64,000 nt of DNA from Thermodesulfobium sp. 4217-1. Its GTDB lineage: Bacteria; Thermodesulfobiota; Thermodesulfobiia; Thermodesulfobiales; Thermodesulfobiaceae. The translations under genes were made by a program, and so were the position numbers. The stretch covers positions 62,001-126,000 of the forward strand of contig NZ_JBAGBW010000001.1 of the NCBI RefSeq assembly GCF_039822205.1, given 5' to 3'. The notes under the pieces were generated by a model. The model was not told the origin of the DNA, did not search any database, and saw nothing but the letters and a program-made list of their open reading frames with translations. Position 1 is the stretch's first letter; every line of letters begins with the position of its first letter. Shown here piece by piece: positions 59,116-62,664 of this stretch.

Positions 59116-59706
59116 TCAAATGGATTTTGATACAAGGTTCTGTTCAACAATATCGCAGATAATATGAGCAATCATAATATGAGACTCCTGTATTCTGGGA
59201 ACCAATCTTGAAGGTACGCTTATGCATATATCAGAGAGCTTCTCCATCTCGCTACCAGTCATGCCAGTGAGAGAAATGGTGCTAATATGGCTAAGCTGGG
59301 CAATCCTGAGGGCCTTTATCAAATTCTTTGAATTGCCGCTTGTAGAAATGGCAAGAAAGACATCGCCCGCTTCGCCAAGAGCCTCTATTTGTCTTGCAAA
59401 TACGCTTTCGTAACCAAAATCATTTGCAATTGCAGTGATAATCGATGTATCAGTAGTGAGCGCTATAGCGCTTAGGGCTCTCCTATCCATCAAAAACCTG
59501 CCCACAAACTCAGCAGCAATATGTTGGGAGTCGGCTGCAGATCCGCCATTGCCCGCAATCAAAAGCTTTTTGCCAGATCTAAGGGCAGCAGATATAACCT
59601 TGCAAGACATTACAACCATTTCTAAAAATTTTTCATCGTTTAGAAGCTTATTTTTTAATTCTATCGATTCTGAGATAGAACTCTTGATTGTCTCTCTTGA
59701 GATCAC
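59116..59706 (-). CDS. gmhA: phosphoheptose isomerase (SIS domain)
   Basis: GmhA converts sedoheptulose 7-phosphate to D-glycero-manno-heptose 7-phosphate for lipopolysaccharide core. The 196-residue SIS protein has LLIAGNGGSAADSQHIAAEFVGRF, the ISTSGNSKNL phosphate loop, and the C-terminal active-site segment RIQESHIMIAHIICD. The start is GTG 59706, one base after the preceding stop, with AGGGA inside that gene. A longer frame open to 59799 is not used because the 196-residue length fits the family. It ends the glycosyltransferase operon. Confidence 0.93.
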   Translation of the reverse strand: MISRETIKSSISESIELKNKLLNDEKFLEMVVMSCKVISAALRSGKKLLIAGNGGSAADSQHIAAEFVGRFLMDRRALSAIALTTDTSIITAIANDFGYESVFARQIEALGEAGDVFLAISTSGNSKNLIKALRIAQLSHISTISLTGMTGSEMEKLSDICISVPSRLVPRIQESHIMIAHIICDIVEQNLVSKSI

Positions 59707-59707
59707 C

Positions 59708-62092
59708 TTATTTTTCCCTTTCAAAAAGGTCATACAGGGCACTAGAGAAGTTTTCAACAGAGTACTTCTCTTTGACAGAAAGTCTTGCTCTCTTGCCAAG
59801 CTCCTGGGCGAATTGCCTATCCGATGCTAATTTCAGCATCGACTTGTAAAGATCTTCTTCGTCAGGGAGCGCCCACTCCCAGTCAGGATTGTATCCTGAA
59901 TTATTTTCGCCTATCCTTTCAAACTTGTAATCCAATAGTATTGAATTATCTTTGTTCATAAATTCAAGATTTCCACCATAACCTGTAGCTATTACAGGCT
60001 TTCCAAGCCACATAGCCTCTATCAAAGGAAGCGCCATACCTTCACAACTGTGAGGCGAGACATAGGCATCGGCAGCATTTAGAATGGTGATATATCCGTC
60101 TCTGTTTGTGGTCTCGTCCACAAATATGACGTTGTCGGTAATATCAAGCTCTTTAATGTACTTAGCAATTTTTGCCTGATTTTCAGAATATTTTGCTGCC
60201 TGGAAGGTCTTAAAAATAAGGATAACATCGCCATATTCTTTTATAACCCTAGATAGGGCTTTTAGTAGTAAAAATGGCCTTTTTCTGTCAAAATCCCTGA
60301 AAAAGTCGAGTATAAACATAAACACAAAGGAATCATAAAAACCAAAGGTTGCGCGAAGATTTTTCCTGTGCTGCAATATCCTCCAATCGTGACTAAAGGG
60401 ATATGGAAATTTATAAACCTTTTTCCCTCCAGCTTTTATCAGGGCGCTTTTAGAAAAGTCAGAATAGCACATAACCTCATCTACACAAGCAAACGCCTCG
60501 GGATCATCAAAATACCTATCAAATTCCCAATTCCAAATTGCAGATGTTTTGCCCTTGAAAACGTTGTTGGATATGTCTTTCAAATAAACCAGATCCTGTG
60601 AGTTTATAAAAAAAATTGTATTGTTAAAGGATAGATTGCTAACGTTAAAACATGCGATATTTTTAATTTCTTCAGGAGAAACGCTTACGTTTGACGCAAC
60701 AGGCAGGAAGAATAAAGAGCAGGGAACGCCAAGGGAAGAGGATTTTCTAAAAAAAGATCTTGCTTGCACTCCCAAACCAATTTTTGATTCAAAAAATCCA
60801 ACAATATTTATTCCGAAGGGGTTGCGCTCAATACGAGAGGTATTAGTGAGATTGTAGCTAACCTTTAAGATGTCTTTCAAAATCGAAGTGTCTATTACGC
60901 CAGATCCGGAAAAAATAATGCTCAGATCTCTTCTTGATTCAATTACACAGCGGGCAAATCGACTTACTGAACTGTATTTTGGATGCAAAAAAGATAGTAT
61001 TGCCCTTACGTTTTCACTATCTGGCAGATAGGGGTTCCTAAATCTTTTAAATATTTCTTCAGAATACTCTTTTCTAACCTCAAGGGGCACCATTATCTGT
61101 GTAAGAGGAAGGTGTTCAAAATAATAAAGCATTTCCCCAAATTTTCTTTTATTGGAGAAAAAGTCTTTGTTATAGTATTCGCCTACCAATTTAACATAAG
61201 ATTTATTTATCGAACCAAAAAAGCTTACATGGTCAAATAAAAATAGGTCATCAAGGTAAAAACCACTAAACTCAAAGAGCGAAACTTTCTTAGACAAGTT
61301 ATTCCTAATTACAAAATAATTAGAATCTTTAAAAACAATGTCGTCTTTCTTGAGGTTATAAAAGGTTAGAGTATATTGCAAATCGTCTAACTCAAGAGAC
61401 TTTAATTTAGAGATTTCGTTTTTATGAAGATAGTCAATTGTAGATTCAGTGTTTTTTATAGCAAATATTGATTTCTTAAAATGCACTACATCATAATCAT
61501 CTAAAAGTTCAAATATGCCGCCTATCTCAGATAAACAAAATATATTTGCTGATAAGTATAGGCTCGATTTAAAACCCATATGGGCAAAATATTCAAAAAC
61601 ATAGGGCAGAGTCCAGCTTTTGGCATCTTCCTTGCTCGAAGTCCACAACACCTTGTGCATATCCCTACATGAAATTTCTGACAAGAGCTCACATAAAAAG
61701 AAAAACTTTACTCCTTTTGCAACGAGCTCATTAAAAAGCCTATATTCTCTGATATCCTTTAAAAGATCTACAACAACTATTACAAAATCAATATCTGGAT
61801 TGTTTTTCAAAAAACTATCCCTTAAGTTCAGAGCATAATGAATCTCATCTTTATTAGCTAAAGTAAATGAAACATTAGTGTGTTGGACCGGTATCTTCGG
61901 AAAGTAATCAAAATTTATTTTTACTGCCCTCAGGCCCTTCCATGCATCTTTTGCTTCGAAAATTTCATATTTTATTTTTGATATGCCCTTTTGCAAGGAA
62001 GCCGCGAAGCCCCTCTCCTGGTATGTCTTTAGAGATTTTCTAAATGACATATATTTTGATAAAGAAGTTTTTAAAAATATATCTTTAAGCAT
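59708..62092 (-). CDS. two-domain glycosyltransferase (GT4-like C-terminus)
   Basis: This 794-residue protein has a basic N-terminus and a first domain (about 55-330) beginning VSFTLANKDEIHYALNLRDSF and resembling GT8-type or other nucleotide-sugar-binding folds. A long C-terminal domain (about 420-794) has the GT4 hallmarks: NAADAYVSPHSCEGMALPLIEAMWLGKPVIATGYGGN (shown in short parts: SPHSCEGMALPLIEAMWLGK) with the E-x7-E motif. Fused transferases of this kind usually build surface polysaccharide or glycosylate flagellin. It is one base after the second UGA-containing gene and one base before gmhA. Confidence 0.82.
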   Translation of the reverse strand: MLKDIFLKTSLSKYMSFRKSLKTYQERGFAASLQKGISKIKYEIFEAKDAWKGLRAVKINFDYFPKIPVQHTNVSFTLANKDEIHYALNLRDSFLKNNPDIDFVIVVVDLLKDIREYRLFNELVAKGVKFFFLCELLSEISCRDMHKVLWTSSKEDAKSWTLPYVFEYFAHMGFKSSLYLSANIFCLSEIGGIFELLDDYDVVHFKKSIFAIKNTESTIDYLHKNEISKLKSLELDDLQYTLTFYNLKKDDIVFKDSNYFVIRNNLSKKVSLFEFSGFYLDDLFLFDHVSFFGSINKSYVKLVGEYYNKDFFSNKRKFGEMLYYFEHLPLTQIMVPLEVRKEYSEEIFKRFRNPYLPDSENVRAILSFLHPKYSSVSRFARCVIESRRDLSIIFSGSGVIDTSILKDILKVSYNLTNTSRIERNPFGINIVGFFESKIGLGVQARSFFRKSSSLGVPCSLFFLPVASNVSVSPEEIKNIACFNVSNLSFNNTIFFINSQDLVYLKDISNNVFKGKTSAIWNWEFDRYFDDPEAFACVDEVMCYSDFSKSALIKAGGKKVYKFPYPFSHDWRILQHRKNLRATFGFYDSFVFMFILDFFRDFDRKRPFLLLKALSRVIKEYGDVILIFKTFQAAKYSENQAKIAKYIKELDITDNVIFVDETTNRDGYITILNAADAYVSPHSCEGMALPLIEAMWLGKPVIATGYGGNLEFMNKDNSILLDYKFERIGENNSGYNPDWEWALPDEEDLYKSMLKLASDRQFAQELGKRARLSVKEKYSVENFSSALYDLFEREK

Positions 62093-62093
62093 A

Positions 62094-62369
62094 TCAAAAT
62101 ACCACTACGAGCTCTTTAAAGAACAGAAACTTCTTCAAAGCGATTCGAAGATTACTTTTAAGATTTAATTCTCTTGGAATATAAATTTCGATTCCCTCCT
62201 GTTCAAAAACTTTATATGACGTATCTTCCATAGGTTCTCCCGCTCGAACTGAGGGGGGCAGCGGAAGTCTGCTTCAGGAAAAACACGATGACGCATTTAA
62301 GAAATAAATCTTCGAACCCTTTGCCTGTATGTATTCTTTAGCCTCTTTATCAAACTCAATTTTAGGCAT
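62094..62369 (-). CDS. predicted small selenoprotein with CxxU motif (second of a tandem pair)
   Basis: A frame of 91 residues runs from ATG 62369, behind GGAGG, to TGA 62094-62096, with one internal TGA at 62274-62276 (codon 32). The context is C29-F-S-U32, a CxxU redox pair. On each side the reading is normal: KGSKIYFLNASSC before, then PSVRAGEP, YKVFEQEGIEIYI and a final LKKFLFFKEL. After the TGA, TTCCGCT (62266-62260) pairs with AGCGGGA (62244-62238) around a 15-base loop, at the distance expected of a bacterial SECIS. The pattern resembles small HesB/IscA-like or CC/Se-motif selenoproteins; the family call is tentative. If UGA is a stop here, only a 31-residue peptide is made. Confidence 0.7.
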
Positions 62370-62664
62370 TTTTACCTCCATCTAAAGCATATATATAAAT
62401 ATATTCCTTGCCATAAGAGCTCGACTTTGCATCAATAATTAGATCTTTGTCATAGGAAAAATTATCTGGTACATACAAAACTACATCGTCAAACTGCATG
62501 TAAAAGTGTTTATCAAAATCTCTTTTTGGCCTTCCCCATCTAACTGATGGAATTCCAGAACCAGTTCCTCAAGTGCTGCACAACAAATCCCTTGATGGCA
62601 AGATATAAATCTCGCCTCCATTAGTTTCAGCTAGTTTAATTGCCCTTTTAGTTAAAGATATCAC
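62362..62664 (-). CDS. predicted small selenoprotein with CxxU motif (first of a tandem pair)
   Basis: A frame of 100 residues runs from GTG 62664 to TAA 62362-62364, with one internal TGA at 62569-62571, also codon 32. The context is C29-S-T-U32. Flanking segments GGEIYILPSRDLLC and IPSVRWGRP, DDVVLYVPDN align with the downstream gene (KIYFLN..C; PPSVRAGEP; GIEIYIP), so the two are homologues. After the TGA, AACTGGT (62566-62560) pairs with ATCAGTT (62548-62542) around an 11-base loop. No ribosome site is seen before the GTG, so the start is uncertain. It overlaps the second gene by eight bases. Confidence 0.65.

Follow-up and report, generated by a model that had tools for sequence, protein, structure and literature searches.

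A conserved tandem of overlapping genes for probable CxxU selenoproteins in Thermodesulfobium

The window analysed here, a stretch of 64,000 nucleotides from Thermodesulfobium sp. 4217-1, contains on its minus strand two overlapping genes, B and A, each interrupted by one in-frame TGA, and selenocysteine (Sec) is very probably inserted at this codon in both of them. We consider it quite likely that the following explanation holds as a whole. B and A would be co-translated paralogous selenoproteins, in each of which UGA codon 32 is decoded as Sec by SelB and tRNA-Sec, and an AGUU-loop hairpin 24 nt downstream would assist the decoding. The products would be small proteins of the CC/Se-motif kind, about 90-100 residues long, A having an IscA/HesB-like fold according to the model. 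Cys29 and Sec32 appear to be the only conserved residues suited to redox, and they would lie roughly at the position of the first cysteine by which IscA binds its cluster. As to chemistry, a reversible Cys29-Sec32 selenenylsulfide seems likeliest, in a small thiol/selenol redox protein or one that handles sulfur or metal. Redox is here a presumed chemistry, and we give an even chance to thiol/selenol redox being the main function.

Gene B (62362..62664, minus strand, 100 codons) runs from a GTG start at 62664 to a TAA stop, and gene A (62094..62369, minus strand, 91 codons) from an ATG start at 62369 to a TGA stop at 62094-62096. The putative Sec codons are found at 62569..62571 in gene B, in the motif C29-S-T-U32, and at 62274..62276 in gene A, in the motif C29-F-S-U32. 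The two genes overlap by 8 nt, and each frame has exactly one internal TGA and no further internal stop or frameshift. The initial annotation had described overlapping frames with one TGA each at codon 32 and a cysteine at position 29, and its coordinates, codon numbers and overlap were all found to be right. The last TGA of gene A, at 62094, was considered as a second Sec codon and rejected: genome G001 has TAA at this place, which makes it a true stop. A ribosome binding site, GGAGGT (62374..62379, minus strand), precedes the ATG of gene A by 4 nt in all four species studied. As this site and the ATG itself lie inside the end of gene B, translation of the two genes is likely coupled. Gene B starts with GTG in the window, as it does in G003, and with ATG in the remaining two species. 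A clear ribosome site was not found at this start, nor did the minus strand show a promoter-like site ahead of gene B.

When the non-coding parts of the whole window were scanned for frames interrupted by a TGA (with at least 20 codons ahead of it and at least 40 behind it), genes A and B were found and no others. The list of standard-code open reading frames has a gap of 570 bases here, apart from a short plus-strand frame at 61983-62168. With that exception the region is empty in standard gene calling, as had been said of it, and reading A and B as Sec genes accounts for the gap.

The Sec machinery is complete in the same genome, which encodes selA (526 bits), selB (349 bits), a Sec-type selD (325 bits), itself interrupted by an in-frame TGA near its start, and tRNA-Sec (76 bits), the gene of which sits just upstream of selB. 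A third paralogue of A and B, present in every species (L019-L022), carries an ordinary Cys where A and B have Sec. Two features expected of a selenoprotein gene in bacteria, a genome that encodes the Sec machinery and a Cys homologue at the Sec position, were thus found for A and B, and they bear out the original proposal of Sec in a CxxU motif. In the same genome two formate dehydrogenase genes (L045 and L046, G000:C14:17663 and 23902) lie 6 kb apart on one contig; one has an in-frame TGA (UHS) and the other is open, and they look like the Sec and the Cys version of one enzyme.

Conservation was studied in four species of one genus, which make up the whole phylum in the collection searched; the genome of the window is G000 (2.0 Mb). 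All four have the two genes intact, each with its TGA, and the 8-nt overlap between them, in agreement with the tandem coupling first suggested. Nei-Gojobori counts on the sequence behind the TGA gave dN/dS values of 0.06-0.10 for gene A and 0.11-0.28 for gene B in the diverged pairs of species, between which dS is about 0.5-1.9. The near pairs, G000/G003 and G001/G002, have fewer changes and carry less weight in this measure. With dN/dS well below 1 between diverged species, the part of each gene behind the UGA is evidently translated and selected. A profile scan of contigs with gene A alone gave a single match, the near relative JAJXTU010000064.1 (unclassified MAG).

The A and B proteins align with each other from end to end (26 % identity, E 5e-10 in a single comparison), and the initial annotation was correct in aligning them. 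Its further argument, that two independent nonsense changes at the same place are improbable, used the wrong null. Because A and B are paralogues, a Sec that both inherited from a duplicated gene is no less likely than one that arose twice. On the other points to which it had tied its reading, sel genes are present in the genome, the homologues align across the TGA, and the relatives are free of extra stops and frameshifts. The Sec coding, the conservation, the homology of A and B and the overlap are established at the level of sequence evidence.

An AlphaFold2 model of A, made from a four-row alignment, had a pLDDT of 80.8 and a pTM of 0.72, residues 33-36 directly behind the Sec being poor (below 50). 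In a Foldseek search with this model, ten of the 11 best PDB matches were IscA, SufA, HI1723, AQ_1857, DsrR and a putative Fe-S biosynthesis protein (E 0.005-0.36, TMq 0.50-0.61), and the match at rank 5 was an entry containing YneR. A thus probably has an IscA-like fold, as the early guess of a HesB/IscA-like protein had it, and according to the model it most likely works on an IscA-like frame. The model of B was too poor to use (pLDDT 38), and for B a fold like that of A is presumed. In an hhalign profile comparison, Sec32 fell opposite Cys35 of IscA, though weakly (P 0.0015, probability 17); of the IscA, SufA and ErpA sequences used, that of IscA was checked against PDB entry 1s98. When the family profile was run against the sequences of solved structures, no relative emerged, the best E being 0.47.

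The same likeness allows A and B to be seen as Sec-containing A-type carriers of Fe-S clusters or metal, in which Sec would be a cluster or metal ligand and not a redox residue. The IscA-type model of A and the alignment of Sec32 with the ligand Cys35 favour such a role, but the C-terminal CxC is absent, and apart from Cys29 and Sec32 gene A encodes zero Cys. DsrR is a protein of the IscA fold that lacks the ligand cysteines. As it is also among the fold matches, the IscA fold alone is no proof of cluster binding. By its defining ligands A is no A-type carrier, and we consider the carrier role unlikely. That A and B act together at all we infer solely from their overlap and shared ancestry. 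A hetero-oligomer of IscA-type proteins, in which B and A unite two Sec as a Se-ligated Fe-S or metal site or as a diselenide-capable redox pair, has in our view a small chance of being right; if true, it would be a selenium version of an A-type carrier, formed from two Sec subunits.

A glycosyltransferase gene (group 1 domain, 794 residues; 59708..62092, minus strand) starts 1 nt past the end of gene A and is likely on the same transcript. It is followed, in a putative operon, by a gene for a GmhA-like SIS-domain sugar isomerase (59116..59799, minus strand), after which comes a flagellar hook-length gene. The order B-A-glycosyltransferase is identical in L039 and L026. The pair might serve the adjoining sugar-transfer genes, for instance as a redox partner when glycans or flagellin are modified. 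The 1-nt spacing and the order kept in three species fit this idea, as does a Cys-form relative (L034) that also adjoins a glycosyltransferase gene, but other members of the family are found beside CstA, GPDPase-type membrane proteins or PhoU/Usp. Because the neighbours vary in this way, the neighbourhood was given little weight for function, and a role in sugar transfer seems improbable.

Behind each UGA there is a putative bSECIS on the minus strand, UUCCAUC-AGUUA-GAUGGGG in gene B (62534..62552) and CCCCUC-AGUUC-GAG(C)GGG in gene A (62239..62256), with the loop G 24 nt past the UGA. A hairpin with an AGUUA or AGUUC loop and with its G at exactly this distance occurs in all eight A and B sequences of the four species. 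In both genes the G is within the first two loop positions and falls in the range of about 16-37 nt after the UGA by which a bSECIS is judged. The stems of A (CCCCUC/GAG-C-GGG) and B (UUCCAUC/GAUGGGG) have different sequences, which means that some pairs have been altered on both sides with the pairing preserved. In the same genome, the Sec of FdhA (L045, ...RIUHS...), a textbook case, has behind it a hairpin whose loop is AGUUUA, the SelD loop is AGGUG, and a further gene with a CGSU motif (L029) has a hairpin with the loop AGUUU. The AGUU loop rule was derived from A and B, and independent tests of it are limited to FdhA, SelD and L029. The shared AG(U/G)U loop would give a simple rule for finding more selenoproteins in this lineage.

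Of the 2253 TGAs in the window, 1.2 % are followed by an AGUU or AGGU loop at a fitting distance and with at least five pairs. About 23 % have some hairpin of five pairs in which the second loop position is G, and for this reason the generic hairpin test is a weak one. At the matching place in the Cys paralogues a hairpin with an AG(U/G)U loop was not found. According to RNAfold, the AGUU hairpin is not the lowest-energy fold in every species and at every window length.

Termination always competes with Sec insertion, and the SECIS is backed here at the level of the hairpin only. The UGA could thus be leaky or regulated. Short peptides terminated at codon 32 would then predominate, and readthrough, whether a near-cognate tRNA or Sec at high Se brings it about, would act as a switch. 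However, the Cys at the Sec column of the paralogues and the match of the hairpin loops with those of FdhA and SelD make this very unlikely. A decaying pseudogene pair in which both TGAs are nonsense mutations, as the want of a gene in standard calling might suggest, is hardly conceivable and was rejected, given the purifying selection behind the TGA, the frames and TGAs kept in four species without any other internal stop or frameshift, and the complete Sec machinery.

To see how far the selenoprotein pair extends, about 600 genomes (627 counted, with repeats) and a second broad sample consisting mostly of the same genomes were searched. Family matches outside the genus came from three further phylum-level groups in the about 600 genomes, and no adjacent pair was present among them. 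Within the sampled genomes, which were not picked by name from large groups such as Bacillota (with Moorella), the Sec/Sec tandem is restricted to the genus. No relative of A or B was found in viral contigs. The matches L033, L034 and L040-L042 are Cys forms. The one in L034 (L034:1453-1821, minus strand) lies between transglycosylase and glycosyltransferase genes, and L040 and L042 come from a single genome, where about 300 kb separate them (G392:C18:741781 and 439897), the L042 match starting only from profile position 15. In another group (L035-L038) an in-frame TGA in a CxU motif is followed by the strong hairpin GGAGGU-GGUC-ACCUCC; the L035 gene is flanked by two similar membrane-protein genes. 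L043 (G415:C72), from the same phylum as L034, matches the family model NF041239 weakly (27 bits) and has two adjacent in-frame TGAs (VGUUNA), which may be a double-Sec form or due to chance.

The genome of the window also has a third small TGA-containing gene (L029:1501-1845, G000:C28) of 114 amino acids with the motif CGSU/CGAU, seen also in L030 and L031 and thus in three of the four species. It has phoU on one side and a gene for a universal stress protein on the other, its AGUUU hairpin loop is 19 nt past the TGA, and it matches NF041239 weakly over the first 63 positions. From these features it looks like another selenoprotein.

Protein A matches NF041239, the CC/Se motif family (Moor_selen_rel), with 65.2 bits over positions 2-88 of 91, above the curated cut-off of 40, and the first guess of a CC/Se-motif protein was therefore well placed. 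B scores 25.8 bits in the window and 36.2 in G001, below this cut-off; judged by these scores it is a divergent relative of the family and no member by the curated rule. The CxxC/U motif of the family is CFSU in A and CSTU in B in all four species. A and B match no Pfam family, and in a search of family models with E up to 10 NF041239 was the sole match, neither TIGR01911 nor NF038090 being hit. NF041239 is listed as a predicted selenoprotein with the motif CxxU in Table 1 of a 2026 review (PMC13188914). A thus belongs to an already catalogued family, with B as its divergent relative, and the family is not new. The earlier suggestion of an undescribed arrangement was overstated in this respect and applies to the tandem only. 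Neither the pair nor a tandem within the CC/Se family is mentioned in the literature texts searched. What is new here is the Sec/Sec pair itself, in tandem and probably co-translated, together with the divergent form of B and the assignment of an IscA-type fold to A. A selenoprotein family whose function is unknown thereby gains a conserved Sec/Sec tandem pair, and the predicted IscA/HesB-type fold would give this orphan family a testable role, that of handling metal or doing redox work where IscA has its ligand.

Compared to the A-type carriers IscA, SufA and ErpA (TIGR00049), A shares the predicted fold and, by profile alignment, the position of Sec32 at the place of IscA Cys35, whereas A and B are without the C-terminal CxC, their sequences ending without Cys, and do not match the Pfam or NCBIfam models of that family at the sequence level. 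The HesB-like selenoproteins (TIGR01911 and NF038090, IscA_HesB_Se) are likewise small selenoproteins of the HesB/IscA kind, but their listed motif is UxGP (PMC13188914), while A and B carry CxxU and match neither model. With the NF041239 family the pair has in common its size, the CxxU motif and the profile match over the whole length. It differs from that family in consisting of two overlapping paralogous Sec genes, of which B is extended at its C terminus and has 2 residues inserted ahead of CxxU.
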